Shown one piece after another: positions 1 to 63,900 of a stretch of 64,000 bases of DNA (position 1 is its first letter; every line of letters starts with the position of its first letter). A model generated the notes under the pieces. It worked only from the letters and a program-made list of their open reading frames with translations. It searched no databases and was not told the origin of the DNA. The position numbers were made by a program, and so were the translations under genes. The stretch is from Planoprotostelium fungivorum. Taxonomy: Eukaryota > Evosea > Variosea > Cavosteliida > Cavosteliaceae. The stretch spans positions 62,001 to 126,000 of the forward strand of contig MDYQ01000022.1 of assembly GCA_003024175.1 (NCBI GenBank), written 5' to 3'.

Positions 1-1789
1 TGGCTGAGACCTCTATATCACCTCCCACTCTATTCTCCTTCAACGAAGGCTCCGCTGTCCGTGTGGCCCAATTCATCGTGCAGATCTTCCAGAATGATCC
101 ATCCGCACTGTCATCCAGTGGAATCACCATCGTATCGAGTGTGTCTCCCACACCTTCCACTCCTTCATCCGACAACTTGTCCAAATCGACCATCATCGGC
201 ATCGTAGTGGGATGCACGGCAGCAGTGATGATCATTCTCATCGTGGGACTGATCGTCCTCTTTGTGTACAGAAGGAAGCTGAGTCTGAGGAGCCACGATT
301 TCTCTGACATCGATCTGTCATCCATCAATCTCGGAGCAGCAAAGAAGAGCGTCATCAACCACGAAGAGCTGACTGATCTTCACATGATCGGATCTGGAGC
401 GTGAGTCATCGTTGTAGATGGACCATCTCGTGCTGATGAGAGTACAGGTTCGGAGTGGTATACAAGGCGAGCTGGAGAGACATCACTGTGGCCGTCAAAC
501 AGGTAGGAGATTGTAGTGAGAGACACGAGCTGATGACATCAGATCAAATCGGAGCACATCAACGAAGAGCAGCTCAAGTCATTTCTCAAAGAAGTCGCCA
601 TTCTGCAAAGTCTCAGAGCTCATCCTGTTCGTGACTCATCAATCTCATGATTCATCACTGATGTATATGACAGAACGTCGTGATGTTCATGGGAGTGACA
701 TTTCCACCTCAGCCACTGAGTCTAATCACTGAGTTCTGTGAAGGTGGTTGTCTCTACACATTCATGAGAGAGACACATGTTTCATGGGATCAACGTCTCT
801 CTTTCATGCAAGGCATCGGTATGTGACTCATTGCCATTCGATTTCTCATTTCACTCACAGCTCTTGGAATGTATCACCTGCATATGGAAAAGGTCATCCA
901 TCGAGGTATGGATCTCTTCATCTAACATGATCTGATGTTTGTGGTAGATCTGGCGATGCGTAACATACTGCTGACAAAGAACATGGAACCGAAGGTGGCT
1001 GATTTCGGTATGTCACGTGAGCAGGAGAACGAGAGCGCTGGAGTGACCAACGTGAGTCATTTGAATTTTGAATCGTACAAACGAACGAGAGAATGAATTG
1101 TCGCAGTCGAATGTGGGACCTCTCAAATGGATGGCACCGGAAGGTAATATTTACCACTCGATGTTGCTGAATGCACCGCAGCCATACAGCATCAGATGTA
1201 TTCCACGAAATCAGACGTATTCAGTTTCGCCGTCACCATGTGGGAGATATTAACGGGTGAGATCATCAGTTCATCCTCATCACTCACGCTCACTCTCGTA
1301 CCTGCAGTCGAAGAGCCTTGGTCTCAGAAATCGGGTCTGGAGGCTGCCATCTGTGTGGCCACACGAGAAGAAAGAATGCCCATACCTTCATCGTGCGAGC
1401 CTGCTATCTCCGCTCTCATCACGCGTAAGTCCTCTCCTCCTCTTCGTCATCTTCATCTTCATCGTCATCTTCATCATCGTCATCTCGGTTGTCCACTGTA
1501 CTGAAAATCATCAGAATGTTGGAGCCACGATCCAGAGAAGAGACCCGACTTCAAAGAGATCACGCAGTACTTGGGCTGCAGACAGATCAACGAAGCCACC
1601 TTTCAGCACGTCAAGGGCAGCAACAGCGACAATTCGAGATCATCCGTGAGAAAGAGCAGAGCCATCGAGAGTACCACACCGACAACCTCCTCTCTATCCG
1701 AGAGTGGCTCGAACCCAACTATCCCGAACACATTCCATCACAAGAGTGTCTACAGTGGACTCTCCCCTCGTTCTTCTGTGCAAGTGTGA
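1..1789 (+). CDS. Receptor-like TKL protein kinase, 3' part of gene
   Basis: The open frame enters the window from the left, so the N-terminus is missing. What remains is a Ser/Thr/Pro-rich stalk, one transmembrane helix (about nt 200-275, rich in I/V/G/L, followed by the basic stop VYRRK), a juxtamembrane segment and a kinase domain spread over about nine exons. Visible kinase marks are the glycine loop IGSGAFGVVY (split by the intron at 403-447), VAVKQ with the ATP-binding lysine, HRDLAMRN, ADFGMSR and KWMAPE. HRDLAxRN with a KWMAPE segment is typical of tyrosine-kinase-like (TKL) kinases of amoebae. The last exon carries a Ser-rich tail ending at the stop at 1787-1789. It probably sits in the plasma membrane and signals through Ser/Thr (possibly Tyr) phosphorylation. 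The ligand cannot be guessed from what is visible. Confidence 0.88.
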
Positions 1790-1835
1790 AGCCAATGCAG
1801 TAAAAAGAATGTTGAATATTCAGTTGTAGATGGGT

Positions 1836-3074: not shown

Positions 3075-5327
3075 TTATTGGTCCAAAGACTTTCCCCAGT
3101 CGGGAGAGATAATCTTGTCAAACAACTGAGTGAATTGTCTGTGCTCAATCAACTTGTAATCCTCCACAGTGTAGGCGTACGCCCCTTCCAGTCCAAACAT
3201 CTTCAGCGATCTACAACCGGTCAGATTCTTCCCGCCAAAAATTATACCTCGTCAAATCCAACCATCCTGGCAGGTTGTAGTACGATGGAACTCGGTTTGC
3301 GGCCAGGGCGTCGACCAGCTCTTTCTGCAGCTGCAACATGAGGGAGGTGATCTGCACTCCTCCGTCGATCATGAAGCGTCCGTACTTTTCCAAGGGGAAG
3401 ACGGTGTCGAAATCAGAGATGTATTCGTGTGGAAGAGATTGCACAGAGTTACCCGTTGCACTCTCGTAACAGGCCAAGTGGGCGTACATGCTAAGGGAGA
3501 TCAGATGAAATAAAATGAAATAAATTCACCGAGTGGTGCGGCCGTTGTAGTCTTCGTAAGGATGGATCGAGACAAACTCCACCATGAACTTGGCGATCTA
3601 TCCCTTTCAATCTCCATCTACAACGATGTAGACGGTCACCTCTTGGACGTCGATGATCTTACGTCCATGCCACCTCTCGAATAAGTTCTGCATGAGGTCC
3701 TCTAACAGGATCTTGTTCCACTTGGCCTGCAGAGCCGTATCGTTTCGAAATAGAGTCTGGAGTGCCAACAACTTGGCAGAAGTGGTCAGGGAGAGGTAGC
3801 CCGCCTTGGCAACACCTGGACCAATTCGATGAGCCGGCACGAATCTTCGTACCGTTGTAGACGCTCACCGTGGAAGTTGAATACGTCCGGATAATAGTAG
3901 AAGACTTCGTAGTCTCCATCGTCGGTCAGTGTGGCGTTCACGGTCAAGTATGGATTCTTCTTCATGGCCTTCACTTCTGCCTCCGTACACTTGAATGTGT
4001 GATCCGGTAGATCACTACCACCCGCTCTGACCTAGTATGACGTCATCACACGTCACGGTGACGTCACGGAGGGGTCTCACCTGGCCTCCTCGGATGGAAA
4101 CCTGCTGTACGGTTGTGCCGGCAATCATGCTCCACAGTTGTGGAATGACGACGTCAGTTTGATTCTTGGCCCAAGCCTTCTTCTCTTGTCCGTTACCGAA
4201 GACTCCTCCGTCGCTGACGAAGACCTGTTTGACATTCGAACGGTGGAAAATGGCGGGAAATCCTCACGTGTTTCCTTCCCGCCATCACTTCGAGGAGGAA
4301 TTTCCTGGCGATGTGAAAGTTCTCGAAATGTTCTGGCTCGAATTCATGCCAAGGGTTGGTGGGGTTGACTACTACAGCTCGTGAGAGGGCGATGCTGCGA
4401 AGAATAAATGAGATTAAATGTTTGCGTTTGTGTCGAACTCACGAATCCATGTAGTAGAAGAGGGAGTAGAAGCTGGACAACCAAGAGACAGAGTCTTTGA
4501 ACGACTGAGAGTCACTCTGAGAGGCCGCCTGTGGAGGTCAGACACATCGCATGAGGTTTTAAAGAAGGTGACCTGGGCTAGATCATCCATGTTCTTCCAC
4601 ATCTGCTCCTCCGAACCGGCCAGTTGTGTCTATCACGTTCAGTCGAATCGCCCATGTGGCATGATCCTCTCACGTCGATACCCTGTGAAGCACCAGCAAC
4701 CAAGTGGCTCAACACTTTGGCGTTGTGGGTGACCCACCAATTGGAAGAGTAATCATCGAATTGATGGATGAAGGGCACCTTCAGTCCCAGAAGAGACTTC
4801 ATGACGGGAGTGATAAAGTCTCTTCCTATTGAGAGGTCAGAACTCGGGTCGAAGGTGGAAGTGATCACCCAGAATGGTGAGATTGTCCGGGCGATAGATG
4901 GGAGTGCCTACGGGGACGATTGCGATGGTACAGAAGGGACCGTAGGACTTGGTGTCGTATCGATCTTGGGACATGTAGAAACCACCTCCGGACATTTGTA
5001 TCGTTTGTTGTTTCACCATCCTATACACGATTAGAGACTGCATTGGTGACGTAACGATGGAAGAGTCACCAATCCATATAACCTTCATCCATGTGGCCCG
5101 CCTGAGTTAATCTACGTAGAGATTATTGAAGTAGGGTCAGCATTGAATCACCTCAGTCCATCGGTGATGGAACCCCAATGAAAGAACCAGAGCTCTTTGT
5201 CCGTCTTTGGAAGAGTGGCGGTCCATTGATCCAATTGGTCTTGAGTCACGTCCCAATCCGAAGAGATGTGGATCGATTGCGAGAGGCATATGGCCACACA
5301 GGCGAGGAGGAGGGCCGCTGCCTTCAT
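3075..5327 (-). CDS. Secreted protein with Fic-like motif
   Basis: The start at 5327 gives a clear signal peptide (MKAAALLLACVAICLSQS). About nine exons follow, joined by introns of 36-55 bp. Near the C-terminus the spliced product reads IAKFMVEFVSIHPYEDYNGRTTRM (coded at about 3530-3600). HPYEDYNGRTTR matches the Fic consensus HxFx(D/E)GNGRxxR at H, D, N, G and both R positions, with Phe to Tyr and the first Gly to Tyr. The preceding FVxIHP stretch is also Fic-like. Fic enzymes transfer AMP or other phosphate-containing groups to hydroxyl side chains. The ~350 residues before the motif are not recognised; they are rich in W and Y and include an N-glycosylation sequon at NLT. The product should enter the secretory pathway, as animal FICD does. 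The stop is at 3075-3077. It could instead be a secreted fold that only resembles Fic, but the match of motif plus flank makes this less likely. Confidence 0.72.
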
Positions 5328-5727: not shown

Positions 5728-8700
5728 ATGGGAGTACCTGCTTTCTACCGTTGGTTGACGGAAAAATTCCCTCAGACGGTAGTCAATGCTCAGGAGATCA
5801 GAGAGTTGGATGATAGAGGGCAATACAAGCAAGTGAGTGTGGAGCCGAACCCAAACGGAGAGGAGTATGACAACCTCTATCTGGACATGAATGGTATCAT
5901 CCATCCCTGCACGCATAATGACGACGGGGTAACTTCTGCAATCGAATGACGATTATTCATTCCTTCAGGCTCTTCCTCTGTCAGAAGATGAGATGATGGA
6001 GGCCATCTTCCGCGTCGTCGAACGTCTCTTCAACATTGCCAGACCCAGACGTCTCCTCTTTATGGCCATCGGTAAATCATCCTCTTCGTTTCCGCTTCTG
6101 ACCTCCATTTCAGATGGTGTCGCCCCTCGTGCTAAAATGAACCAACAACGCTCCAGACGTTTCAAGGCCGATCAAGAGAAGAAGGATGCCCTGGCTAAAC
6201 TCATCAAAGAGGCAGAAGAGAAGGGAACTGTCTTCGATGCCGCTAAAAAGGCAGCCGAGTTCAACTCCAACTGCATCACACCTGGTACAGTCTTCATGGA
6301 CAGAGTGGCCATCTCCCTTCAATTTTTCGCCGAGTTGAAGGTGAGAAAACGAAACACGACGATGGGCACATACAATTGTGCGGCCGTCGATGATGTGACA
6401 TTGATGGAAAAAGGTCAATACGGATCCTGGTTGGAAGAACATCAAAGTGTTATTCTCCGATTCAAACGCTCCAGGAGAAGGTGAGATGATGTTCACAATC
6501 ACCCATCATCACATCACCATCATATCCATGACCATCACACAGGAGAGCACAAGATCATGGAATACGTCAGGAAACAGAGAAGTCTTCCCGACTACGACCC
6601 CAACATCAGACATGTCATCAGTGGACTGGATGCCGATCTCATCATGTTGGGTCTATCCACACACGAGGCTCACTTCCACATCCTCAGAGAAGAAGTCACC
6701 CCCACTCCCTACGGAGTGAGTGGCTCGTTGTAGTCCGCCAAAATTAACCCTCCCAGGTCTGCTCTCGCTGCAAGAGGAAGGGACATCGATCGGATGAATG
6801 TCAAGAGGACCCACCCGAGCCACTGTACCAGTTCTTACGTCTTCACGTCTTGAGAGAGTACCTCGCCTTCTACTTAGAGGTGAGACATCCCTCTACAACG
6901 AGCCACAGGAATACAGATTGAAAGAGATAGGTACCCAACTATGCAGATTGGAATTTAGACAGAGCCATCGACGATTGGATCTTCATGTGTTTCTTCGTTG
7001 GAAACGATTTCTTACCCCACATGCCCGCCCTCGGTATCCACGATGGTGGTTTAGACTTACTCGTCAACTTGTGGAAGGAGACTGTACCCGTCTTAGGGTG
7101 ACTCTCTCCTCTTCTTCTCCTCTTCTTCCTTCTCATCCTCTTCTTCTCCTCTTCTTTCTCATCCTCTTCTTCTCCTCTTCCTTCTCATCCTCTTCTTCTC
7201 CTCTTCCTTCTCCTCCTCTTCTTTCTCATCCTCCTCTTCTCCTCTTCTTTCTCATCCTCTTCTTCCTCTCATCTCTCTCATCTTCTTCTTCCTCTCATCT
7301 CTCTCAGTTGGTTGACTCACGATTCAAAAATCCACCTCCCCGCAGTCGAGCAGCTCTTCAAACGCGTCGCAGAGAGAGAAGACGATCTCCTCCAGAAGAA
7401 ACAGAGATCCGATGCAAATCGAGAGGCAAAGTTCAAGAGAAACGACGTTGCGAAGGCCGAGAGGTATTTGGCTCAGAAGGGTATCCGCCCTTCCTCTTAT
7501 GTCGCTCCTGCCCCCATCAGGGTGGTCGATAACAATAATGTGGCGGCTAGTTTGAGAGCAGCCATCATGTCTCAGGCTGGTGGAGGCTTGGGTGGAGCTG
7601 CTGGTATGACGGCCGTGGGGGAGAAGAGAAAAGTCCAGGAGATCTCGCAACCCACGAACAATGTGTGGGAGCCACTCAAATTGCTGTCTGCGGAGGAGAA
7701 GAAGAAACTGAGAATCAACGATACCGCTGAGGTGAAAACCGGGTGAAATTTCGATGGTTGACGTGTGATAGGTAGAGGACGAGATCATGTTGGGTATGAG
7801 CGGATGGAAGGAGAGATATTACACTCAGAAATTCAAGGTGGGTCGTCCGTCTACAACTTGCCACTCAATATCGTCAGGTCGATCGCCTGCTGGACACGAC
7901 GTTCATGCACAAGTTGAAGCAAGACTATTTAGAGGGACTGCAGTGGGTCTTATTGTATTATACGAAGGGTTGTCCTTCATGGGGTTGGTATTTTCCTTAC
8001 CACTACGCACCTGCCGCGGCAGATCTGGTGAATCTGTCCGATGTACAGATCAATCTGGAGCTGGGAACACCCTTCAACCCACTCGCTCAACTCATGAGTG
8101 TTCTCCCGCCATCGAGGTGAGTTTGAATTTCGAAACGTGGTGGTTGACGGACCCACAGTAAACAGTTTGTACCGGAAGCTTACCAAAAGTTGATGACCGA
8201 TCCCAATTCATCCATCATCGATTTCTACCCCACCCACTTCAAACAAGACCTCAACGGTGCCGTGAGTCCATCTACAACGCCCTCGAAAACTTATCGAAAT
8301 TTCGCAGACGCAGTTGTGGAAGGCGATCGCCCTCCTTCCGTTCATCGACGAAGAGAGATTGCTCCACGCATTGGAAAGTCAAGAGAGCAAATTGACGCCG
8401 GCAGAGAAGGAGAGAAACACGAGGAGAGAGCACTTGCTGTACACTTCGAGTGAGACAGAAGAGGGATCTGTGTTGATGAAGAACTACAAGTCGGAGGAGT
8501 GGGTGGACATCAGCATGCCCACCAACGATATGAGAGGACAGGTCTCCCGATTCCCATCGAGTGAGTCTACAACCTGCCATCTCTTCATCGACAATCTGCA
8601 CAACTTCATCTACAACGAACTGACCCCATTAGGTGTAGATCCGGGAGAGACGTATCCGTCACCACTTCCCAACTACCAACCGATCAAGAACACAAAGGTC

Positions 8701-9970: not shown

Positions 9971-9978
9971 AAATTAGG

Positions 9979-10996: not shown

Positions 10997-13653
10997 TCAG
11001 TTGCTGAATCTCTTCCGTGATTTGTTTGGTCTCTTTGGCCTTTCATCATCCTCGTCCTCTAAAAATTCTCCTCTGATCTTGTTAAACTTGTGAAACGACT
11101 TGTGACCAATGACTGAAAAAGGTATGGGAGCTTTGGTCACGTGGCACTTTTCGCAGACGTCAAATTTGAAGCAGTCGGCACACTTGTATCGAAGCCCGTT
11201 GAAACACTTGGCCAGACAGATGTCACTAGATCTCGTCAGCAGAGAGACGAGGAAGGATAGACTCACCACTTGACCGATGGATGGCTCAGATCTTCGTCCA
11301 TCACCATGTCCATCATGTGATCGTGACGGTGAGTTCTCGGTTCTTTCTTCAAGAAGAAGCACTTTTGACCTTTCGATCGCGTCAGGTGATATCCTCCTTG
11401 TATGTATCTCACATAGATCCATCTGTTTGCATTCGACACAGCGGAATCGATTACCGATGATCGGATGAGTCAGACATCCCTGACATCTGATCTGATGGAC
11501 TTGAAATCCTCCCGCCAATTCTGGTTTCTGTCGATATTGAGTGATGTTCATCTACAACGAGACACTCTTGTACCTCCACCAGGTCCCAGTGGTGCTCCTC
11601 GCTGTGGTTAGGGGCGAAATCTGGATTTCTGAACTTCTTGTTGTCGTAACACTCTTCACAGATGTCTAAATCAGGACAGTCGTCACAGTGAAATCGTATA
11701 CCCCAAATGGGCTCGTAATTACAGCAGTTACCTGTCACCCCCTCAGTCCCAGTGAAATTTCCTCCAAATCTCACATTTGTACCACTCGTGAAATACCATC
11801 TCGTTTACAATGTTCTCGATTCGGAAATATTGTTCGTGGGGGTCCTTTGATTCGATGAGACAGGCTTCACAGAGATCTCTGTTCTTCTCTTCCTTGTGCT
11901 TGAATCTGATGACGTCAGATGACGTCATCCAAATAGATTCACCTTGGAGTGCCAACGGCAATGTCGTTGCTACACACGTCACAGGATATCACGTCGTGAT
12001 TCCAATCGAAATATTCTCCCAATTGGTTGCCTAGCGACAGCCAGCCCCTCCTGATGTTGTGGTTCCTCGCAAACAACTCGATCTTCCTTCCACCTGTTTT
12101 CGGTCATCTACAACCCGCCATCGTCTCGTTGTAGAACTCACCCGGTACCATCTGCTCGATGATTTCGTACAATTCTTTTGGCTTCTGTGAGTTCTTGCCG
12201 GTCTTTGCAAAGAGTACGTCGTTGGTCACCTTCGTGACGAATTCAATGTTCCTTCCCTGATTGGCCTTCACACCAACCAGACACGTCTCAGTGCTGTGGA
12301 GGAAGTAGAAGCCTTGGGTGACGGACAGATTCTCGTTGACCGTCTTCTTTACCCAGGTGATCTACGTTGACCAGTCAGATCTAACGGATCTAATATATCT
12401 AATCTATAGTTGTATCTGATGTATCTGATAAATCTGTCTACTGTATCTGATGGATCTGATGGATCTACCTTGTCTACATAAGTGTAACCCCAACGGTTGA
12501 GACACTCGTAAGCCAGAGGCTGCTGACCGTTGATGGCCCACAAGAAGAGGAAACCAGAGGTGGAGAGAGATCCCACGTCGATGTCTAAGATCTCGTTGTT
12601 GGCGAGGGTGTTGTAAGCGAGAGCGAAATTATCTGAAGACGATCAGACTCGTTGTAGATGGAAGATTCAAAGAAGATTCACTGTTGGAGAACATGGTACG
12701 CTCGTTCGAGCCGTGTTCGGTGCCCTTCACTTTCCTGGAAAAATGAGAATGATGACGTCATCGATCTACAACGCACCAGGGAGGGTCGATGAGTACGACG
12801 TCAAAGTCGTAGTTGAGAGATTTCAGGGAAAAGTAGCGCAGATCGCAGTTGATGAAAGTGCCCTCGGTCCACTTCCACTGGTTCTCTAAGAGGTCCTGTT
12901 GATGCTTCTCTCTCTCTTTGTCGTACTTCTCTTCTCTCTCTTTCGATGTCTTCTTCTTCTTTGTCCTCTCTCTTCGGATGAAGTAGTTCTGAAAGTTACG
13001 AATGAGAACCTCATTTCTGTCTGATGTGAGTCTCATCCGTTTGAATTTCGCTTCTCAGAGATCACAACTCACGGTTTGTTCATGTACTCCGGGGTGATGT
13101 CTTCGAAATCGGCATCATCGATGATCAGATCTGTGTCTAATGTCTCTGTCGTGGATGGATCTGCGGGCTCTTTCGAGTCGATGGCAGGAAGCTCTTTGGC
13201 GTACAGTGGCGGTCTACCATTTAACCCGTGTTCGAATGCTTCCTCTTCCGCAAGCGGAACAGGATATCTCTGTTCGGGTTGTAATTTTTGCAATTCTGGC
13301 CATGCAGTTGCCTCTATGGCTTTGGTCAATCGAATCATCCCACACATTCGTGGGGTTAACTCACTGGCTATCGTGATGGCATTATCTGGCAGGTTATGGG
13401 GTGTCAGGGAGGGTATCATATGATCCGTCTTTGGTGCAGCATAATCATTCGTATCATCGTCCGAGTCGTCCTCCTTGCTCCTGCGGTTCTTCTTATAACT
13501 GTAATCCTCCCCTTCTTCGTCCTCCTCATTGTAATTGACCACCTGACACGATTAACCATCATCATCCTAAACACCCACTTTTGTAGATCTCTTCGAGGTC
13601 CTCGGTGGTGGTGGAGGAGACGGAGGTATTAGACTGAGATCTGCTTCATTCAT
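10997..13653 (-). CDS. MT-A70 adenine methyltransferase fused to ZZ-type zinc fingers
   Basis: Starts MNEADLSLIPPSPPPP at 13653. An acidic N-terminus is followed by a highly basic coiled region (EREKHQQDLLENQWKW) and the MT-A70 catalytic motif DVVLIDPPW (about 12775-12800). The methyltransferase continues with NFALAYNTLANNEILD, GFLFLWAINGQQPLAYEC, LNRWGYTYVDKITWVKKT, HSTETCLVGVKA and KIELFARNHNIRRGWLSLGNQLG. This series resembles the MTA1-type clade (ciliate and early-fungal DNA N6-adenine methyltransferases) more than METTL3 or METTL14. The C-terminal third carries four Cys-rich units of ZZ type: CDVCSNDI...DLCEACL, YKCNCCNYEPIWGIRFHCDDCPDLDICEECY, CQGCLTHPIIGNRFRCVECKQMDLCE and CFNGLRYKCADCFKFDVCEKC. 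A basic tail (RPKRPNKSRKR) may be a nuclear signal. The likely product is nuclear and methylates adenine in DNA or RNA. ZZ fingers often read histone tails. Confidence 0.85.
12094..12141 (-). repeat. Intron carrying inverted copies of the TCTACAAC motif (MT-A70/ZZ gene)
   Basis: On the coding strand the intron begins GTGAGTTCTACAACGAG and later contains GTTGTAGATG, so the two copies face each other about 10 bp apart. Confidence 0.88.
12366..12478 (-). repeat. TATCTGATG-type tandem repeat inside an intron
   Basis: Imperfect 9-12 bp units around ATCTGATGG/ATCTAATATA fill the intron that separates WGYTYVDK from ITWVKK. On the minus strand this intron begins GTAGATCC and is much longer than its neighbours. 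Confidence 0.8.
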
Positions 13654-39667: not shown

Positions 39668-39685
39668 AACAATTTTACCATCTCT

Positions 39686-48900: not shown

Positions 48901-49670
48901 TGACACGCATTCGAATCATCGCGAGGCAATTGCTGCAATCTCTCAATTTCATTCACTCCCTTGGAATCATGCACTGTGATCTCAAGCCGGAAAACGTGAG
49001 GAACGTCAAACTACAACGAGACTGACTGCGACAGATCCTCATCAAAGATTACGACAGGTCGAGTGGATTTCGTGGAGATTGCGACTTACGTACGTACAGC
49101 GTGCAGGTGAAGATGATCGATTTCGGCTCGAGCTGTTTCACGACGGATCACATGTCGAGTTATGTACAATCGAGAAGCTACAGAGCACCCGAAGTTGTCT
49201 TAGGTCTCTCTTATGGCCAGAAGATAGACATCTGGTCACTCGGTTGTATATTGGCCGAATTGTACACTGGAAAGGTGATCTACAACCTGCCAACAGCGTG
49301 ACTCACCCAACCAGGTTCTCTTCCAGAACGAATCCGTCGTCACTCTATTAGGTGAGAGCGTAATTCGAAATCTCCCTGACACACCACAGCGAGGATGGTG
49401 GGGGTGTTGGGAACCTTCGACGAAAAGTTGCTCAAGGCCGCTCGCTACCGCAATCGTTTCTTCTTACGGGATGGAAATCTATTCGAAGAGACGAAGAAGG
49501 GGATGTGGGTCATACGGCCAAAGAGCACGAGTCTATCGGCCAGGCTCAAGTGCAGCGACGAAGGTTTCGTTGACTTCATCGGGAAGCTGCTTACGGTGAA
49601 GCAAGAAGAGAGACCGAACGCGGAAGAAGCTCTGAGACATCCATGGCTGCAGACTGAGGCGGGACAATAG
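45904..49670 (+). CDS. LisH-domain DYRK-family protein kinase (plant DYRKP-like)
   Basis: The N-terminus MSRPLFDVQLLMTDERILELIHEFLESRNLSQTAKLLETES is a LisH motif. A long, Ser- and Glu-rich, poorly conserved middle follows in many small exons (46200-48480). The C-terminal kinase (48550-49670) has VLGSAAFSTAVRCED, CVKIIKNNKEFFDQSLDEIRLLQHIN, LFIVTELLDRNLYEFYKFN, IMHCDLKPEN, IDFGSSCF, SSYVQSRSYRAPEVVLG and the terminal HPWLQT. SAAFS in place of a glycine loop and YVQSRSYRAPE (activation Tyr) closely match the DYRKP subclass, which I know best from plants, where a LisH-like N-terminus also occurs. DYRKs autophosphorylate on Tyr and then phosphorylate Ser/Thr substrates. LisH suggests dimerisation. 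Stop at 49668-49670. Confidence 0.88.
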
Positions 49671-49870: not shown

Positions 49871-52800
49871 ATGCCGAGACATCTCGCAAAGAAGCACAGG
49901 GCATCCGTATCTGTATCACCTGCATCCATGGCTGCCTCTCTCGCAGAGAAAGAAGAAAGGGAAAACTCCTCTGTCAGCTCTTCTCCCAACGTCGTTGACC
50001 TCATTGATGTGGACGATGCTCAGTTGATTGCCAGGTGTGTTAATGTCTTTCGACCATCGATAATTAATACTAGTATTCAGCTCAGATAAGGAGAACAAGA
50101 AGAACATGAGTGTCACCCCATCAGGTGATTTACCACCTTGATACAATCTGATCATTATTTCTAGACAATTCGAGAAAGAGGAAATCACCAGCACCTCTAC
50201 GCAAAGCGAATTCAGATCCACCACCGAATCGTAAGAGCATGTGGGAAGCGATGGGATTCAAACCGATCAAACCCAACACATCAGTGAGCATCGTGTTGAA
50301 ATGACATCACCTGACAAAGGGTAGGATGTAGTTGCACCGGTGACACCTATGGCTGCGAGGCAGAAGGTGAAAGAGGAAGTCGTGAGTGTCTATGTCACAT
50401 ATCCTAGATTGACATAAGGCAAACAGGTTATAGACATTACTCTGTCACCGGACACCCATGTGGTCAGGTGTCTCTCTTCCTCAACCGATTGCATCGTCCC
50501 AGCAAAAGAGGAGATGGTACAGAAGGAAGAGAAGGAAGAGAAGGAAGAGAAGGAAGAGAAGGGAGAGAAGGGAGAGAAGGTAGAGACACAACCCGATGTG
50601 TCCATCACTCAGAAATCGATCGAAACACCAGAACCCTCACAGACAGAAGAGTGAGTGCATTCCCATATCATCTTTTCGTTTCTCATCACCGAAAAACGGA
50701 TGACATCATCAGATCTCAAAACTCATCACTCGATGATGAAGCGATCGCCATGGCTTTGCAACGCGAAGAGTATTCCAGAGGGGCCATCGAGACGATACGA
50801 GAGAAAGCGGAGACGGAGGCAGAAGAATACGTTCCCAGTTATTATCTTAAAGACTTCTTCTCTGTGCTGGACTCTTGTACCGTCCAACACAAACACCTCT
50901 TCCTACCCCAAGAAGAACAATTGATCGAAAAATTTCGGTAATTTCGTTCTATCGCGTTGTAGATGACATCGTTCAGCCACGGTATCACAGAGAACCAGCA
51001 GAGGCTATTCATACGGCTGTATCACAGGAAGGGCCCATGGTTCAGAATCGCGTCCCTGAAATACAGAGAACTCGCGGAGATTCCAAAAGAGTGCAAGGGA
51101 TTGACGGAGAGTGGATTCGCCGTCACCCTTGGCAACGGAAATTTCTCCGAATTTCCAGATAGTACACTGGACATCTTGATGGAGCTCCTTACCGTTGTAG
51201 AGCTTAAGAATCTCCTCAAAATGGGAAATTGGAAGATTCCCAACACCGGCTCCACCAGATCCAAGTGAGGTCGCTCTACATCGTTGTAGATTGACCGTTC
51301 CAGGAAACAATCTCCCTCCATGGGACAGAACAATGGAACGAGGGATCAGATCATCAAGACGATCTTGTCTCACCGTCAGCAAAGAGGCCTCGACGGAAAT
51401 TTAATTGTTCCGAAATTATTCTGGAAGGCTCTGGGCCCGGGAGCCTCCCTCATCTCCCTATCTACAACGTCCATCCAAGTGAAATCTCATCGACTATTCC
51501 GTCTCACGTATCTCAGCTGTTCGATCGAGTCAAACGACTCTTCTTCCTCAACGAACACGACGATCACTCTCTCTTGGTTCTGTCTGCCATGGGCAAGATG
51601 ATCTATCCATCCTATGATATAAGTAAGGGGAGACCCGTTTTCGTACATCGAGACGATCTCGTGGCTTGGGAGCAAGCGAAGACGATGGAGAAGGAAGTAT
51701 ACACGCTATCTGACGCGGGCGAGGTTGCCACGGCGACGAGCGTGAGTCATCGTGATGGAATGAATGTGAAGAAATCACCAGATCATCAACGCTGCGGCCA
51801 AATGGTTGTTAGATACTACGGACGAGAGCAAAGATCCTTACTTTCTCGCTTACTTGAGGAGTCAACAATTGCGCGGCGAGAAGACAGAATCTCGAAGTGA
51901 GTTGGTTGCGCAGATAGATCGTCGCATTTACGACGCACGGCAGAGGAAGAGAAGGAGTTAGATGAAGAATTGGAGGAGAACGTATTCCTCAAAAGAGAGT
52001 TTTTCGAAAAAGTGAAGAATTTCTATCCCGATGATAAGCCGTCGACCGTTTTTCCGGATATCTCTGAAGAAAATCCCCTCAAGTGCTTTCGTAATCCCAT
52101 CACACACGAACAGGTGAGATACGACCGTCTTTTATCTCTTGTAGATCGATCACATAAATCTCATTTCATTCAAATAGGCCGAAGAGTTGATCAAAGATCG
52201 ACCTTATCTCGCACGATTCAGTGTCGGTTGGGTTCTGGCCAAGTTATTATGGCACGGTGTAGACACTGCAGAGAAATCACGCGATTACGAGTCCGCGGTA
52301 TTGTACTTGCGTATCCTCCTGTCCACTCCTTATTGTCCGGGGAGGCGTGGTTCCTGGTGGAATCGTCTCGCCTTAGACGTGGATCACATGAAGAATAAGA
52401 AGAACAAATCTCTACTCATCGCAGAGGTGAAGTGCATCATGATCTCTCACATCGTCATCTCATGATCATCATCTTGAAGAAGATCGAATGTGAAACAGGT
52501 GGGATTAGAGGACGTGAAAGTGAAGAGAGCAGAGAAACAATCGCTGCAGAAGAGAATAATCAGATTAGCCAAACCGCCGAGGAGGTGGAACCCACCGAAA
52601 TTTCAAGACGAAGGGCTGCGCGAGCCATCCGAGGCGAGATTTCGACGATTTCTCGCATCTGAACGATTCAACAGAAGACGATCTATGGAACGTTACTCAA
52701 TTATCAAACTGGAACAAAGTCAAAGTTCTTATCCATCACGGGTGAACCGATTTCAGTAGAGAATCTCGCGTTAGAATATTACGCACAACAAGAAGGTTGG

Positions 52801-54223: not shown

Positions 54224-56078
54224 ATGAGCACGATTCTCATCACGGCTGCGATCGCAGTAGTCATTCCTCCTCTCTTCCTCCTCTATAGTCTGTGGAATTC
54301 CCCCCTGAGAGCTATCCCTCTGGCACCAGATGCAGACATCCTCTTAGGCCATCTGCCAAAAGTTGAAGCAGATACGGGTGTATGGCCTAGAAAATGGAGT
54401 CAGATGCTTCCATTTGGAGTCTTTCGAACACGATTCATCTTTTCGTGGAGAGTCTGGGTCACTGATCCAAAAGCCTTGACGAAGGTGATAGTTTACCTCT
54501 GGACGAAGAGACTGATCTTGTTCGTTAGATCTTGGTGACATCAGCGTACGATTACCCCAAACCCCCATCACTCATCGATTTCTTGTCCATCCTCTTAGGA
54601 AGGGGAGTCCTTGTTGCTGAAGGTAAGCTATATAGCCATCGACCAAACATGATCTCACCATCATCATCAGGAGTGGAGCACAAGAAGCAGAGAAGAGCCC
54701 TAGATTCTGCATTCTCTCTGCAGCAGATCAAAGACCTATCCGACATGTTCTGGAGCCCAGGAAGAATCTTGTCTGAGAAATGGAAAGAGGCTGTGAGTCA
54801 TCTTCCCCCGAGGATCATCTAACGGACTTCAGGTACCATCTCAAACCGAGTCAACCCGTTTAGACATCTGTCCTCTGCTCAGTCGCTGTACCTTAGACAT
54901 CATCGGCCTGGCAGGTCAGCGTCACCTCATCGTTGCTCTCGTTCTCATGACAAACAGGTTTCGACTACAACTTCGACTCGATGAACAGAGAAGACGATCC
55001 GTTAGCTAAAGCGTACAACATTCTATTCGGTCATCCCGAAAATGCTCCCATCATCGTTCACATCGTGTCACTGTTGGCTGAAACCTTCCCCCGACTCGTA
55101 TCTCTTCGCAACGGAACCAAATTCATCAAGAACATCGTACAGGTGAGACCAATGGCAGGTTGTAGACCGACGTAACCGAACGCACAGCAAAGAGAGATCG
55201 TAGAGAAGATCACACAGTCTCTACTCGACAAGAAGAGGAGAGAGCTGAAGGAAGCTATCGACAACAACACGCCACACACGAAGAAAGACATTCTGAGTCT
55301 GCTCGTTCGAGACAATCTCGGGCTGGAAGATCCACTGACAGACAAGGAGATCACAGACCAATGTCTCACCTTCCTCGCCGCCGGTCACGAAACAACGTCG
55401 ACAGCTCTGACGTGGACACTGCAACGGTTGGCTGACAACCCTACCGTGCAGGAGAAATTGAGAAAGGAGATCTTGGAGGTGTGTCTTTCATCATGATCGT
55501 GATGACATGATGCTGATCGACGAGTAGAAATACCCCGAAGACAGAAATCTGACGTACGATGAGCTGAACAACAGCCTGCCTTACCTCAACGCCGTCGTCA
55601 GAGAAGTCCTCCGAATCGACTCACCTGTTCCCATGACGATCCGACAATCTGCCAAGGATGACGTCATCTGCGGCTACACCATCCCCAAGAATTCGGTCAT
55701 CATGGTGGCACCCGCCGTCATTCACTTTCACCCGGACATCTGGGGACCTGATGCTGCAGAGTTCAAGCCAGAGAGGTTCTTGGACAACAACGCCATACCA
55801 GATACTGCCAGGAGTGAGGCAGACTGAGCATAGGAATGAGAAGGACTGACGGAAGGACAGCGCCGTTTGCCAACTTGACATTCTTGGCGGGACCCAGAAA
55901 CTGCATCGGACAAAAGTTTGCGCTGGCTGAGATGAAGGCACTTCTCATCTGCATCCTCAGAAGCTTTTCCTTCGAGCCGGATGTCATCGGACAACACGTG
56001 GAGAGGAACAGTCTGTTGGTCATGAGGCCGAAGTCGGGACAGCTACACTTGAGAGTGAAGAGGATCGAAGGAAAATAA
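54224..56078 (+). CDS. Cytochrome P450 (CYP4-like clan)
   Basis: The start at 54224 gives an N-terminal membrane anchor (ILITAAIAVVIPPLFLLYSLW). In order: the VAEGVEHKKQRRALDSAFS helix C region, DIIGLAGFDYNFDSMN, helix I AAGHETTSTALTW, helix K EVLRID (ExxR), FKPERFLD, and the haem loop FLAGPRNCIGQKFAL with the axial cysteine. All residues needed for a working monooxygenase are present. The TPFANLTF junction just before the haem loop needs a ~60 bp intron (GTGAGGCAG...GGACAG). Family level is CYP4-like by the GPRNCIGQ signature; the substrate is unknown. It sits in the ER membrane. A decayed tandem copy lies downstream. Confidence 0.92.
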
Positions 56079-56705: not shown

Positions 56706-57593
56706 ATGTTGAGCACGATCCTCATTACGGCTGCTTACGTCACCAACAATCTATTCTCATGACAAACAGGTTTCGACTACAACTTCGACTCGATGAACAG
56801 AGAAGACGATCCATTGTCGAAGGCGTACAACATTCTATTCGGTCTCCCCAAAAATACTCCCATCTTTGTTCAAATGATTGGACTGTTAGGAGACACTTTC
56901 CCGCCCATCAGACACCTCCGCAACATGACTCAATACATCCGAACCATCAATGAGTTGAGAACGATGGCAGGTTGTAGACAGTCCTAGCTGAACGCACAGC
57001 AAAGGCAGATCGTAGAGAAGATCACTCAGTCTCTGCTCGACAAGAACAGGAGAGAGCTGAAGGACAACAACACGCCACACACGAAGAAAGACATTCTCAG
57101 CTTGATCGTTCGAGACGATCTGGGACTGGAAGATCCACTGACAGACAAGGAGATCACAGACCAATGTCTCACTTTCCTCGCCGCCAGTCACGAAACAACG
57201 TCGACGTCATTAACGTGGACACTTTTAAGATCAGCAGAGAATCCACGAGTACAAGAGAAATTGAGAAGAGCGATCTTTGAGGTATGTTTTTTTCTCCCTT
57301 GAATATCATCAAGTCTGTCACAAGGTTAATCGACGAGTAGAAATACCCCGAAGACAGAAATCTGATGCTGCAGAGTTCAAGCCAGAGAGGTTCTTGGACA
57401 ACAACGCCATACCAGATACTGCCAGGAGTGAGCAGACAGAGCACAGGAATAAGAAGGACTGATGGAAGGACAGCGCCGTTTGCCAACTTGACGTTCCTGG
57501 CAGGACCCAGAAACTGCATCGAGAGATGCAGCCCGGTCGTCACGAGGCCGAAGTCGGGACAGCTACACTTGAGAGTGAAGAGGACCGAATAAA
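56706..57593 (+). pseudogene. Decayed tandem duplicate of the P450 gene
   Basis: Sequence from 56706 (MLSTILITAAY) to 57593 follows the upstream P450 at high identity but with large pieces missing. The first exon jumps directly to the intron before GFDYNFDSMN, losing the helix A-C exons. After KYPEDRNL the copy jumps to the AAEFKPERFLD region, losing helix K and its ExxR motif. After AGPRNCI it jumps to the C-terminal RPKSGQLHLRVKR. Helix I reads AASHETTSTSLTW, with Gly changed to Ser. Four residues are also missing after RRELK (EAID in the parent). It cannot fold as a P450, though it may still be transcribed. High identity of the kept parts suggests a fairly recent duplication. Confidence 0.88.
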
Positions 57594-57686: not shown

Positions 57687-59494
57687 TTATTCTTTCAGTG
57701 CACTTCTGGAGATGATGATTCTCATGACGGCATCGGATCCCTCCAAGATCCTGTGCACTCGAACATCTCTCAGGAAACGCTCTACGGGATAGTCTTTCAG
57801 ATAACCGTAACCTCCGTGCATCTGTAATGCGTCGTCCACTACCTGTAAACATAGATGAGCTTCGTGATGTGATGGGTGGATGCAACAGTGATGCATGACG
57901 ATGATGGTGGTGATCTCACCTTGTAAGCGGAGTCACAAGTGTAAAGCTTGGCCATGGCACATGCTGCGGAAGCAAAGGGATCTTTCGCATCTAAGAGTTG
58001 AGCTGCGTTTCTGACCATCAGACGTGATGCATAGACTTCCTTTGACATGTCTGCCAATTGAAATTGGAGACTCTGTGTACGCCATCAGATGAACCATCGC
58101 ATGATCGTCATCATGATGATCGATCACCTGATTTGAAGCGAGAGGCTTTCCAAATTGCTTTCTACCTTTGATGTATTCCTTTGATATATCAGTGCATCTC
58201 TGTGCAGCTCCCAGACTACAAGCGGCTACACACATCAATTCTCCATCTACAACGACCACCTGTACGAGTGAAATCTCACCGATATTCACACGACCACCAT
58301 CCAGTGCCTTCATTGCAATCTTGAAACCGTCTCCTTCTTTTCCAATGAGATTCTTCACGGGCACCTAACAAAGTTGAGAGAGGGTATAGGATCGCATTTC
58401 AATGAAACCCCTACCTCACAGTCTTCGAATATGACTGCCCTCGTTGGCTGTGAATTCCATCCCATCTTCTTCTCTTTCCCGCCAAAACTGAGACCGGGTG
58501 CTCCCTTCTCCACCAACAGACAAGATATACCGGCGGGCGCTGTTCCATCAGTTTCGTCTCAATAAAAGTCCTCTCACTGTTGTCTCCCGTTCTGACCATG
58601 ACCATGTAGATATCACTCGAGCCACCACCGCTGATGAATGCCTTCGATCCGTTCAAGATGTACTTGTCTCCCTTCTTCACGGCCTTTGTTGTCAGGGAAG
58701 CCGCGTCAGATCCACTGCCGGGCTCGGTGAGACAGTAAGAGGCCAGATGCTGGTGCGTTATAGATACGAGAGTGAGATAGGCTTACCTCCATGGTAGTCA
58801 ATTTGGGTAGAAATTCTTCACGCTGAGCTTGTGTTCCGTATTGGTCGATGAGTCCTGCACACATGCTGATGATCATCAGATTTGGATGAGGGGATGAGAT
58901 CAATCACTTGTGGATGCTGATGTAAGCGGTGGTGCTGACACACGCGGATGACAGAGCCTCGAAGACGATGGCGGCTTCGATTCTTCCCATGCCAGATCCT
59001 CCAACGTCTTCAGGTACGTAGATACCTTGTCGATGTGTCAGATGAAAGATGGAGGCAGAGGGATGTCTTGTCGTTGGAAAGGATGTCGGTAATTCGATGA
59101 AAGACTGACCTCCAAAACCCATCTGAGCTGCCTCTCTCAGTGTGTCGACGGGAAATATTTCCTTCTCATCCCATTCCTTCGCAAAAGGCTCCATGCGATC
59201 TTGAGCGAACTTGAGAGCGGCTTCCCTCAACATGATCTAAAAGATGTCAATCGACACGGACATCAATTGTTGAAGATTATAGTCGATTGAGATGATGATG
59301 ATGAACTAACTTGTTCTTCGGATAGACCGAGATTGGCTGCGTCTGTCAGTGTTGTTCGAGATCATATGGGACTCACGATCCGGAAAGGAGGAGAAACATC
59401 TCCTCGGAGTTGTAATACACGTTGGTATTCTCGCCTTAGGTGTTGTGCTCGATACCCCTCTGAATGACAATCGCGATACGGTCTTCAACATCAT
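57687..59494 (-). CDS. ACAD8: Isobutyryl-CoA dehydrogenase (acyl-CoA dehydrogenase, ACAD8-like), mitochondrial
   Basis: The start at 59494 gives a basic, Ser/Arg-rich presequence ([20 protein letters not shown]). Then [104 protein letters not shown] and the C-terminal [39 protein letters not shown]. The catalytic glutamate is in ILEGS, and the C-terminal ending ISRSALKE matches ACAD8 (isobutyryl-CoA dehydrogenase) better than SCAD or IVD. It oxidises isobutyryl-CoA to methacrylyl-CoA in valine breakdown, passing electrons to ETF. Six or more introns of 40-70 bp. Stop at 57687. Confidence 0.92.
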
Positions 59495-59629: not shown

Positions 59630-60619
59630 TCATCTCCAACTCTGCCTCGAATATCTACATCTCTCAGCCGTGTCATCCATCATCGTCATCACCTCGGAAA
59701 ACTTTCTCGTGAGTACTCTTTCCACCTCTTCGACTTCCTTTCTCTTTCCCATCTCTTCTGATATGGACGTCACCGTCTTATCCTTTATCCCACAAGGTAC
59801 AACGGCTTGAAAAGGTGCCAGATCGTTACAGACATTGAGTGCCAGTCCATGCATCGTCACCGCATTCGACGCGGTCACTCCGATGGCGGCAATCTGTAGG
59901 GGGTGAGAAGTGAAGAGTGGCGGGTTGTAGACTGACCTTCCTCTTTCCATCGATCCATACACCGACGTCTTGTGTCGTACTGCCTTGGATGTCGAAATCT
60001 TGCAGAGTAGAGATGACAACATTTTGAAGATTGCCGATGTATGATCTGATGTGATGTGAGATGGAAGACCACCCATCAACAACAACGTCTTCACCTCAGA
60101 CCTCGAGATCCTCCCTCAATTCCGTCTTTTCCTTGCTTCAACTTTGAGAGATCGATGATGGGGTAAGCAACAAGCTGTCCCGGTCCATGCCATGTCACTG
60201 GTGAATGTGAGACAGAAGAAGAGATGATCGATGCACCTGCGCCTCCTCTACTTGTCTTTACGATTTTGAATCCGTTCTTCTCTTCGGGGATCTATTGTTC
60301 ATCACCTCGACACGAAATGAGATAGATGATTCTGTACGTCACCGCCTTCTGTCAGCAGATCGGCTGTCGTATCTCTGCGTCCCATCGTATATACACCTGG
60401 ATTATGTTCGACCAATAACAGTGCACCGGCCCAATTTGGATCTGACATCCTTGGGTGTAGAGTAGACACCTCTCCATAGACTGACTCAGTGGGTAATGTC
60501 ACGACGCCTGTTCTATGTCTCGTTCGCATGATTTGGAAGAGCTGTTGTTGAAGCTGATAGGTTGGAAGGTATTCCCTCCGTCCCAATCGTAAGACGGAGA
60601 TCAGTCTCCTGTTGATCAT
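59630..60619 (-). CDS. LIPT2: Lipoyl(octanoyl) transferase (LIPT2/LipB), mitochondrial
   Basis: The start at 60619 (MINRRLISVLRLGRREYL) looks like a mitochondrial presequence; an in-frame ATG at 60664 would add 15 residues. Then LLLVEHNPGVYTMGRR, VTWHGPGQLVAYPIIDLSKL, DVGVWIDGKRKIAAIGVTAS, VTMHGLALNVCNDLAPFQAVVPCGI. The catalytic pair is visible: Lys in RKIAAIG and Cys in VPCGI. The enzyme moves octanoate from acyl carrier protein to the glycine-cleavage H protein, the first step of lipoate synthesis for mitochondrial dehydrogenases. It lies just 135 bp upstream-to-downstream from ACAD8 on the same strand. Stop at 59630-59632. Confidence 0.93.
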
Positions 60620-60664
60620 GGTGTTGTGATGTGGCACGTGAGCAAGCCTTTCGTTGTAGTTCAT

Positions 60665-60927
60665 GTGAAATTCGGGTTCAATTTGGTTAGCAGAAACAAT
60701 TTTCCCATCACTTGCAAGGGGCGAGCATTGATTGTCAAGTTTAAACGAGCATAACAGTGTAGATAGAGGTATGTGTTCATCTTACCCCTCTTTTCTTGAA
60801 AGTGATCGTCTGATCTACCATTGCTTCCATTTTGTCTTCGAATTTTCATTCCTCTCTCTTTATCTCTCGCTCACATTCACGAGAAGACACTGATGTAAAA
60901 TTCTAGTTTTTGAATCATTGACCTCAG
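60665..60927. promoter_or_regulatory. Divergent region between LIPT2 and the ZZEF1-like gene
   Basis: About 260 bp; presumably the two promoters. No element can be named. Confidence 0.35.
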
Positions 60928-63900
60928 ATGGGAAATGCGGAGTCCGTGGCCAAACCGTACAGGCCGGAACAACTTCAACAATTAGAACAAGTAGATAACA
61001 ACAACATCGCTCTCTTGAAGTCCAATCACGACAATGCTGCCTTCATTCAGAAGGTGATAATCTCACACCATTCTTCCTTCTCACCTTCCGAAGGCATTGA
61101 ACATTTTACAACAAAATCCTCGCCAGTATGTTTACGACGACGAGTGCTTCACCACTTCTCAATCAGATCGAGACAAGAGACGGCACGTGGAGGTCGCTCT
61201 CTCTTGTTTAGACAAAGACGAGCATGGCTTTCTCACTCGAGATATCAAATACAAACTGAGAGCCATCCGTAAGATGTCCACACCCCTCCCATTTCACGAT
61301 GTCACGAAAGAAGTCACATACCACGCCACTATCCAGAAGATATTCGATTCTCTCATTCGACGCCGACGACGCAGAGCTCTCCACCCCCGAGATGAAGGAT
61401 CTGATAATCAGAGGAAGGCCGATTACGTCATGTCCATCTTCTCGAAGGTCTCGGAGCCCACTCTGGACATTGTCCTCATGGAGCTCAACGGTCTGCCCCA
61501 CATCGATGAACTCTGTCTCTTTGATGATCGCGCAGAAGAGACGAGCATGACCGGAAGTCTATTTGAAGAGATGGAAATCGAGGACACCGCACACAGAGAG
61601 GGAGAACCACAAGAACAAGGAACCAACCAAGGCAGCCTGCCCGAACAGAGAGAAGCGAGAGAAGACTTGATCGATCGCCTGCTGTCGTGGTCACTCGAGG
61701 ACTCGAAGAAGAAATTGGACGCTACCACCGGTGATGCTCCATCGTTCGACCCATCTGACGTATTCCAGCCGAAATTTCGGAGGTAGAAGTCAACCCTTCT
61801 CCCACTCTGACGCTCCTCCGTCACATCCAGCGATGTCTGTTTGTTGATTTGGCTGCGGAAGATACGAACGAGATCTATCGTGAAAAGTTGAGCCGTTGGA
61901 TTCACCAACTCGTGACGTCATCGAATCAACTCATCGATCACGCTCTATTGAAGAACGACCTCTTGGCTCCAGAGGCCGGCGGCACGAAAAATGTAAACGG
62001 CAACATTGAAAAGGTAAAGACATTTGAAATGACGTGTTCTCATCCATGCAGGTTTTACGCAATTCGATGGTCAACGAATTGTTGTGCGATTTATTTCTGT
62101 GCATGCCTCCTCTCTTCTCGAGAAATTCTCTCTCCAGTGACGTCATCACGTTCGCAAGGCCAGTACTCCACCTTCTACAACGCTTGGACCGATTGAACCG
62201 TTTCATATCAGAGAACGTCGCCATGGACAAGACTTTTCTCGATCTACAACTCGCCAACTCTCGCTCCCGCGACCCCGAATCAGGCAGTGGAGACGAAGTG
62301 TACGTCATCGAAACGGCTCACCACTACTCTCCCAATACCGTGGACGATCGCCACGTCATCGTCCCAGGAGCTTCCCACCTCTGCCTGACTTTCGATCCGA
62401 GATGCTCCACGGAGGCCAATCAAGATCTGCTCGTGGTGACCGACAGCAAGGGTGAGCCCGTCACACGACCTCTCAGCGGAAAGCCGGAAACGTGGCCGAG
62501 GGGGCCAATCGTGGTCGCGGGAGACAGTCTGTCCTTTCACTTCCAGGCCAATGGCTTCAGCACATACTGGGGATACCGTTGTACTGTTTCTCCCGTTTTT
62601 CTGTGGACTTTGGACCCTACGAACGGTAATGCATTCGGATGGCTTTACGATAGGGAGGTGTCCGCCAGCTTTCTCCTGAGAACTTGCTTGGAGCAATCGA
62701 TGAAGGTGGTGAAAGACAGAGAGGAGACGGACAACGAGGCCTGGCTCGATTCTCCACTGTTTCGTGGAGGATTAGCTCCGCAGAGTCCGCACGAGGGCAC
62801 CACCTTTGTACAAGAGTTCACGTCGGGAAAGAAGGACAGCAGTGCGAGGCAATTGATCGACCGCATCGAGAAGAAACTTCCCCACATCAACCCTGTCGTG
62901 AACAAAATGGGTGGAGAGGTGAACATCCTTTATCTACGTTCCTTATCTCTAATACAAACAGCCGATCGATATCGCCGTCAGATCTTACATCATCACTCTC
63001 ATCAAACACTCTGGTCTGTTACCATCCATTCTATCGGGTTCGATCACAGCTTCAGAAGAGGAGACGCTCTGCAGATTGTTTTTGGAGGGAAGGAAATTGA
63101 GACAGTGGGTGGCAGCAGAAAGGCGGGAACGATTCCAAAGACAAGAGGAGAACAACAACAACAACGCCGAGGCAGCTCCCGAGGACAATTCGTACGAGAA
63201 ATTCGGTCGAGATATCCTCGAGAAGACGGACCTCCTTCTACAACTCACCACGTGCATCAGCCCACCCGAGGAAGACAATCGATCCCACGCCGTGTCCAAC
63301 TTGTCGGGGAAGAAGAGACAATTCAACAACCTCAATCCAGGTCTCCGATCTTCTATGGATGATCCTTCTATACAAGCTTGGATCGAAATGTTTTCAACTT
63401 GGAAGAAACTGCAGGGACCGACTCGAGTGAATCCATCACCATCGGGTGAGTCGAATTTTATTATCGTTCGATCTACAACGATCACGTGATACTGAAGGAC
63501 GACAGGTGGAAAGACGGTCACGGAGATCATCACTGCCCTGATCAAGGGCTCGGACGTGAAAACTCTGAGAAAACTCGTGGAGAAGAGGATGTCCAGGGCG
63601 AAGGCCAGGATCACCGTTTGCAAGCTTCTCATCGAATCTATCTTTGGACAAGATTCTTCTTCGAACCATTCGGCCATCACCATGACAACCATCAGAGCAG
63701 ATCTAATCTCTGTCATCGGACCCTCCGTACGTAAGATGAAGGAGAAGGAGAGCAGGGGACATTACGCTTCCGGCCTGAGATCCAGTGGAAATTCCCTGGA
63801 AAACTCGACAAAAGAGGCGTTCCAGCAGTTGTACACGAGATTGGTTCGGTTGCTGAGGGATTCGAACACGCTGGCTACTCTGTCTCTCGCTGCCATCGAT

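Follow-up and report, generated by a model that had tools for sequence, protein, structure and literature searches.

A 64-kb stretch of the Planoprotostelium fungivorum genome (positions 62001-126000 of contig 149, MDYQ01000022.1; "the window" below means this whole stretch) raises the question of why one short word, TCTACAAC, recurs in both orientations in the small introns of unrelated genes, and whether it is read in RNA, read in DNA, or left over from copied elements. In the window, we identified 76 copies of TCTACAAC, 38 on each strand, compared to a mean of 1.44 and a maximum of 5 in 100 dinucleotide shuffles, in agreement with an earlier reading of the same sequence (the original prediction) that the motif is abundant in both orientations. 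Each of the ten positions named there corresponds to a motif core within 2 bp, and 9 of the 10 lie inside predicted introns; the tenth, a forward core on the plus strand (46942-46949), falls in a predicted exon that, in our reading, probably hides a missed intron. Genome-wide (36.86 Mb in 471 contigs), CATCTACAAC has 6,181 matches compared to 280 for the reversed control, and the 15-mer TCCATCTACAACGAG has 477 compared to 0. The window holds this 15-mer just twice, and of the motif of about 15 bp originally proposed, an 8-base core with looser flanks stands, whereas the full 15-mer was overstated. Among 168 sites of all classes from the window and 20 loci (consensus GTCCATCTACAACGAGCCA), flank positions match the consensus in 40-69% of the sites, the core being invariant by site selection; the conserved unit is the 8-base core. 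A softened profile (at least 12 bits) marks 103 of 917 short introns compared to 1.5 in shuffles, with few intermediates, and in distinct introns the core occurs 128 times vs. 1.5 expected, compared to 90 vs. 44 for its 24 single mutants combined. Among the open-licence papers listed first for our searches, we recognised no description of this intron motif. A scan of the window for Rfam families gave 0 matches, as did a tRNA scan, and an occurrence of the motif in viral contigs was rejected, CATCTACAACGTTGTAGA having 0 exact matches there.

To place the sites relative to genes, we used a self-written hidden-Markov gene finder that works ab initio, without RNA evidence, with the window and 25 loci of ten kb as training sequence (314 kb in total, to which the counts below refer unless stated otherwise). 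It predicts 117 genes with 1,202 introns (median 44 nt), with donors of the form AG/GTGAG and CAG acceptors in 908 of the 1,202 introns. The gene at 16169-31858 provides a check of the models, as its HECT domain scores 48.8 bits in the unspliced frame and 219.6 bits after predicted splicing, which takes out several introns, among them a motif intron within the domain (31117-31160, plus strand, forward motif at the 3' end). The 25 loci were placed without aiming at motif positions, except for L038, which was chosen as a neighbour of L020. Among the resulting 26 sequences, 8 are labelled motif-rich, 12 motif-poor and 6 are unlabelled. Loci L001-L008, chosen by motif, and L029-L036, which contain 5S genes, were used only in the comparison of flank similarity, apart from L035, which entered one more.

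Of the 204 cores in these sequences, 99 are intronic, 29 straddle the 3' end of an intron, 62 are exonic and 14 are intergenic; in the window, the corresponding numbers are 45, 8, 18 and 5, which bears out the claim that most copies lie in introns. Core density varies from 0 to 16 per 10 kb across 20 loci, and the fraction of introns with the motif from 0 to 24% per locus. With 49 motif introns among 254 (19%), the window is motif-rich. Raw core enrichment over chance is 47x in introns, 12.2x in intergenic DNA and 9.8x in exons. Most exonic and intergenic cores are without the flanking consensus, and 45 of the 62 exonic ones are on the coding strand. The original prediction would have been refuted by a density in exons and intergenic DNA equal to that in introns, which was not observed: in the 8 motif-rich sequences, introns contain 3.00 sites with matching flanks per kb (91 sites), compared to 0.17 for exons (15) and 0.08 for intergenic DNA (1). 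The motif is more common in short introns (99 of 923) than in long ones (17 of 279). Motif introns are neighbours about as often as in permutations (19 pairs vs. 18.2), and codon bias, taken as a proxy for expression, was not significantly correlated with the motif (rho = −0.17, p = 0.10).

Strand symmetry, pair geometry and relation to splicing

Inside introns, 55 sites are oriented with the gene and 44 against it, and a further 29, all against the gene, lie at the acceptor; both orientations yield one common extended consensus of about 19 bp. Among pairs of sites within 80 bp of each other, 14 are convergent, 11 are tandem and none is divergent. For spacers of 0 to 30, we identified 828 convergent pairs genome-wide compared to 2 in the reversed control, 507 tandem pairs compared to 35, and 33 divergent pairs compared to 3. 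The spacing of these pairs was tallied from the first places of the genome: in 44 of the 50 convergent pairs listed (of 828), the two half-sites abut with zero spacer to form TCTACAACGTTGTAGA, and in 60 of the 100 tandem pairs listed (of 507), a list that contains arrays and coding repeats, the start-to-start distance is 22-24 bp. One coding source of tandem matches is seen in L020 (3392-3476), where TCTACAAC recurs at 42-nt steps within predicted coding sequence. Exact palindromes number 7 in the 314 kb, all of them within predicted introns. Introns of the window also contain imperfect palindromes (3598-3639 on the minus strand, 46598-46639 and 51265-51303 on the plus strand), a forward and a reverse motif with a 13-bp spacer (12094-12141, minus), two forward motifs (8561-8632, plus) and two exact forward motifs with a 21-bp period (27532-27605, plus).

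Use of both strands combined with a fixed inverted-dimer geometry would be expected of a site for a homodimeric DNA-binding protein, and both are observed here. Because the two orientations share a consensus, and because of the inverted dimer and the tandem preference for 22-24 bp, the motif appears to be read as double-stranded DNA, and a fixed dimer together with a spacing of about two helical turns would be expected of a DNA-binding protein. Of the three ideas originally offered (an introner remnant, a DNA-level protein site and an intronic splicing enhancer), the second is therefore favoured on the strength of strand symmetry, zero-spaced inverted dimer and tandem spacing, and the other two are unsupported. 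We propose, with about an even chance of being right, that the motif is the recognition site of an abundant, sequence-specific and as yet putative DNA-binding protein that acts in gene bodies. The monomer site would span about 19 bp (GTCCATCTACAACgaGCCA) and be read as double-stranded DNA, with two half-sites placed either head to head with zero spacer (TCTACAACGTTGTAGA) or in succession at 22-24 bp, and selection would maintain the sites.

The motif might instead act in RNA, as a splicing enhancer, as a branch-point variant or through hairpins formed by paired copies. Part of the evidence fits such a role. The ending GTTGTAG, in which the reverse motif supplies the acceptor, is the second most common intron ending (32 of 1,202 introns), and position +11 of acceptor-type sites is T, giving a branch-point-like TGAC, in 19 of 29 cases compared to 11 of 99 elsewhere; the acceptor-type site thus seems tuned to splicing. 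In the window, such introns end in GTTGTAG followed by A (3211-3247, minus), in TTGACTCGTTGTAG (24326-24366), CTGACTCGTTGTAG (24500-24538), GCGTTGTAG (26098-26139) or CCGTTGTAG (28340-28377), each followed by A and on the plus strand, in CGGTTGTAG followed by A (44738-44781, minus), and, with the eighth core base different, in CTCGTTGTAG followed by T (47295-47335, plus); two further plus-strand introns carry a forward motif in addition to the reverse motif that serves as acceptor (27314-27354 and 29450-29492). In the other motif introns, the donor is slightly stronger than in introns without the motif (5.88 vs. 5.39, p = 0.057). Against this, acceptor strength (p = 0.59), intron phase (p = 0.40) and the frequency of branch-point-like words (0.36 and 0.39) do not differ between motif introns and other introns, and position within the intron is free, save near the donor, the branch point and the acceptor. 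Among introns of at most 60 nt, mean length is 42.7 nt for the 72 with the motif inside, 42.9 nt for the 27 of acceptor type and 43.1 nt for the 823 without it (p = 0.76). A branch point or an enhancer would be expected in a fixed orientation, and a branch-point signal was rejected, both orientations being in use. The enhancer is likewise unsupported, because the same extended consensus occurs in both orientations and splice-site strength and length show no clear difference. As described below, the motif moreover varies between chromosomal stretches, from presence to near absence, despite similar splice signals. We consider an RNA-level splicing element very unlikely.

Gene starts, chromosomal stretches and companion words

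Two features of the distribution go beyond the original prediction, namely exclusion from gene starts and regional switching. Of the introns up to 500 bp from the ATG in motif-rich loci, 2 of 99 have the motif, compared to 81 of the 378 introns beyond that distance (p = 3.6 × 10−7); in all loci, the respective numbers are 3 of 254 and 97 of 816. Permutation within genes gave an expectation of 23.8 motif introns among the first three introns, compared to 8 observed (0 of 5,000 permutations were as low). Close to the stop codon (up to 500 bp away), there is a weaker dip (10 of 201 vs. 96 of 781). Promoter sites would be concentrated near gene starts; we found 2 of 99 introns near the ATG and 0.08 well-flanked sites per kb of intergenic DNA in rich loci, and a promoter element was rejected accordingly.

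The initial 141 kb of contig C1 contain 5 matches to CATCTACAAC, and the 293 kb that follow contain 90 (this profile uses the first 100 of the 6,181 places and is complete to 473 kb of C1). Among genes with 8 or more introns (n = 57), the motif is also shared unevenly (chi-square = 120.8, 56 degrees of freedom), and loci range from 0 of 59, 0 of 51 or 0 of 40 motif introns to 9 of 38 or 10 of 49. Splice signals, intron length and codon use are similar in rich and poor loci, which therefore look like one organism, and a mixture of two organisms in the assembly was rejected on these grounds. Intron enrichment is also seen for three companion words, TGACGTCA, GAAATTTC and TTCCCGCC, of which the first two are palindromic and the third is about equally frequent on both strands. 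Their density in introns is 4.5 to 22 times higher in motif-rich than in motif-poor loci, even though the sorting of loci took no account of them, whereas the simple repeat ATCATCATC has nearly equal density in the two groups (0.63 vs. 0.58 per kb). Pooled, the three words occur in 6 of the 254 introns within 500 bp of the ATG compared to 67 of the 816 beyond, and TGACGTCA is short in the first three introns (2 vs. 6.7, p = 0.016). Genome-wide, ATGACGTCAT has 1,603 matches compared to 30 for its control, and 3 of its 47 places up to 434 kb on C1 fall in the poor 141 kb.

If a protein reads these sites, introns would be where they can reside, as they are hard to accommodate in coding sequence and are excluded from intergenic DNA and from the first 500 bp of genes; inside an intron, they would take whatever space is left free by the donor, branch point and acceptor. 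The sites occupy some chromosomal stretches, alongside TGACGTCA, GAAATTTC and TTCCCGCC, and are nearly absent from others. This regional presence and absence, together with other strand-neutral words, points to a likely role in gene-body chromatin rather than in splicing or promoter control; candidate roles are the silencing of initiation inside gene bodies, the marking of a chromosomal compartment, and meiotic or nuclear organisation. More tentatively, and with the balance tilted against it, we suggest that introns carry a DNA-level chromatin code, that is, strand-neutral protein sites, chief among them TCTACAAC and its inverted dimer with zero spacer, more than about 500 bp from the ATG and in certain chromosomal domains only, with introns partly kept as landing pads independently of splicing. 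It is an old question why compact genomes retain very many tiny introns. Introns that host DNA-level sites barred from exons, promoters and gene starts would have a role apart from splicing, and the sharp switch on C1 and the 500-bp rule would allow the chromatin domains of a protist to be approached from sequence.

The same distribution could arise from tolerance rather than function, if the words are ordinary regulator sites or products of local mutation that are purged where they disturb initiation and tolerated in the gene-body introns of some stretches. The companion words presumably resemble bZIP, heat-shock-factor and E2F sites, and such bZIP-like, heat-shock-like and E2F-like words would be among the regulator sites in question. 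Consistent with tolerance, several unrelated strand-neutral words have one distribution, the boundary about 500 bp from the ATG resembles what may be a zone of promoter influence, and intergenic DNA, which is short in this genome, is poor in well-flanked sites. However, a core density in introns of 47x chance requires a source or positive selection, and introns of poor stretches lack the words though they are otherwise alike. Tolerance is improbable in our view, and it is, alongside copied DNA, the main alternative.

Several observations weigh against a gene-body protein site. The gene models on which it rests are ab initio, built without RNA evidence, and span 314 kb of 36.86 Mb; the sampled contigs were drawn from genome match lists, including that of the search with the 15-mer TCCATCTACAACGAG; and the grouping into rich and poor loci was made after motif counts were known, although the companion words played no part in it. 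Sites of gene control would be expected near promoters, where motif sites are rare. Cores in exons and intergenic DNA also exceed chance (9.8x and 12.2x), though their flanks are poorer. The share of motif introns climbs with coding length (rho = 0.27, p = 0.005), and GAAATTTC alone is not significantly depleted in the first three introns (3 vs. 5.6, p = 0.15). Finally, flanks of different sites resemble each other more often than expected, with 20 site pairs having at least 10 of 13 matches upstream compared to 4.7 expected, and 26 downstream compared to 5.4. This excess, which partly reflects repeats and paralogues, hints at some copying.

Copied or mobile DNA as a possible source

The remaining reading is that the sites are remnants of mobile or copied DNA with the motif at its ends, be it introners, miniature inverted-repeat transposons or filler DNA from break repair. 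Introns would have been seeded by such an element or have received one, the core alone would have been left, and a domesticated transposase could now bind it. The excess of convergent over divergent pairs (828 vs. 33) is what inverted repeats at element ends would produce, absence from promoters and gene starts fits the purging of insertions, and some flanks are similar in excess, as noted above. Comparison of the 1,202 introns with each other revealed mostly common modules of 18-25 nt, in both orientations, with likeness over nearly the full length in paralogous genes and in a few pairs without the motif. Two kinase paralogues (43% identity) lie at 1-1789 of the window and at 5011-9998 of L038; of the 10 introns in the former, 3 have exactly the same position in the latter, and intron turnover between paralogues looks very fast. 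Shared modules, near end-to-end likeness and fast turnover of positions make some copying possible.

The introns do not otherwise behave as such remnants would. At the ends of 116 motif introns, we found no consistent target-site duplication (runs of at least 5 matches in 0.052 vs. 0.068 expected; largest z = 2.7, at +6, among 17 shifts from −8 to +8), and an introner with target-site duplications was rejected. Introners would be similar up to both splice boundaries, which, apart from paralogous genes and a few pairs without the motif, we did not observe among the 1,202 introns compared; outside the core, similar flanks are modestly in excess. A miniature inverted-repeat transposon would lengthen its host intron, but the mean lengths given above (42.7, 42.9 and 43.1 nt; p = 0.76) show no added length and the motif is more common in short introns, so insertion into existing introns was rejected as well. 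The zero spacer in 44 of the 50 convergent pairs listed would leave no room for an element. We estimate that the excess of single mutants of the core, if due to neutral decay, would correspond to a change of about 4.5% per site, far too little for flanks as degenerate as these; a sharp core between degenerate flanks is unlike what copies of a single element would show. The introner remnant originally suggested is therefore not supported, and we consider copied or mobile DNA an unlikely source of the sites. If the copies are nevertheless remains of mobile DNA, they would be of an unusual kind, with about 19 bp conserved and introns not lengthened.

Apart from the motif, some introns have other modules in common, such as TTTGAAATTTGAATCGGGCGGGAA and CGTGGAGAATCGGTGGGAA (in introns of, e.g., L040 and L027, or the window and L026), and ATTTTATT is strand-biased (24 vs. 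5), unlike the strand-neutral words. Two introns, in L040 and L019, share GTACGATCTTAAACCCTAA, which contains AACCCTAA, presumably akin to the plant-type telomere repeat. L020, near its end, and L038 contain a recent duplication on contig C47, with identical introns of 48 and 43 nt about 5.5 kb apart, and matches to the Tubulin family with identical scores and spacing on contigs C185 (11310-12045) and C187 (31283-32018) represent allelic or duplicated sequence.

Motif introns of the window and known systems

The remaining motif introns of the window are all predicted and occur in both orientations on both strands. On the plus strand, the HECT gene contains reverse motifs in the introns at 19007-19061, 21789-21828, 22040-22120 and, together with TGACGTCA, 23689-23727, and a forward motif at 20717-20758. 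Also on this strand, forward motifs are found in an intron of an XRN gene (6880-6930), in one of a DYRK/CLK-like kinase gene (47106-47144) and in those at 7838-7877, 25219-25256 (with TGACGTCA), 25677-25716, 28144-28182, 36047-36095 and 63446-63505; the forward motif directly follows the donor at 8262-8307, adjoins it at 49275-49314 and is at the 3' end at 48297-48336. Reverse motifs are present at 401-447 (core at 411), 25514-25555, 35198-35237, 47591-47633 and 50938-50976, and at 48025-48059, where the motif adjoins the donor. Two more plus-strand introns with a reverse motif belong to a gene that we take to be P450-like (55143-55187) and to its tandem paralogue (56971-57015), whose predicted 5' end is probably wrong; as a test of conservation, these paralogues offer a single motif intron. 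On the minus strand, forward motifs occur at 3816-3868, 12633-12681, 42279-42378, 59894-59936 and, at the 3' end of the intron, 40406-40446, and reverse motifs at 11528-11573, 12735-12776, 44503-44545 and 58226-58279. The window also encodes a predicted protein with a long lysine/glutamate-rich repeat and just 2 predicted introns (38075-39667). Among the proteins predicted in the sampled loci are some with filamin-type actin-binding, P2X-receptor and arrestin domains, as well as an aspartate transcarbamoylase for which CAD is the best solved match; an exon-by-exon search for the alveolin family gave no match, and an alveolate host was rejected on that basis. This protein content suggests a member of Amorphea, perhaps an amoebozoan. 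Contig C327 (154107-161180, in L035) carries a tandem array of 5S rRNA genes, many of them 351 bp apart, and with dispersed copies elsewhere there are 47 matches in all.

Among known systems, the periodic An/Tn clusters in introns of Caenorhabditis elegans, A/T runs with a period of about 10 bp, are an orientation-free intronic sequence at the DNA level, in gene bodies of particular chromosomal regions. In P. fungivorum, by comparison, there is a defined 8-base core with a 19-bp consensus and a dimer geometry, and TCTACAAC itself is not an A/T run. The pairing-centre sites of C. elegans and the dosage-compensation entry sites of Drosophila are short motifs in both orientations, dispersed over large stretches and often intronic or away from promoters; here, several words occupy the same stretches, and the motif is not known to mark one chromosome or chromosome end. 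Introners are reported as short sequences, similar to each other and numerous, in introns of genes that are unrelated (Gozashti et al. 2022, PMC9860276; Amoebophrya, PMC7789003), and the motif resembles them in this respect, in its inverted pairs and in its gene-rich protist genome. It differs from what those accounts report in that likeness is limited to about 19 bp, short of the splice boundaries, with no consistent target-site duplication and no added length. The CERP2/CELE2 elements of Caenorhabditis are reported as recognisable elements with promoter motifs inside that are bound by HIM-17 (PMC9757741). Unlike the motifs described there, the sites in P. fungivorum are scarce at gene starts and between genes, with no visible element around them. 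In both cases, thousands of copies of short motifs occur in preferred pair arrangements; in Caenorhabditis, a DNA-binding protein reads motifs that were spread by inverted-repeat elements (PMC9757741), and in P. fungivorum the corresponding protein is putative.

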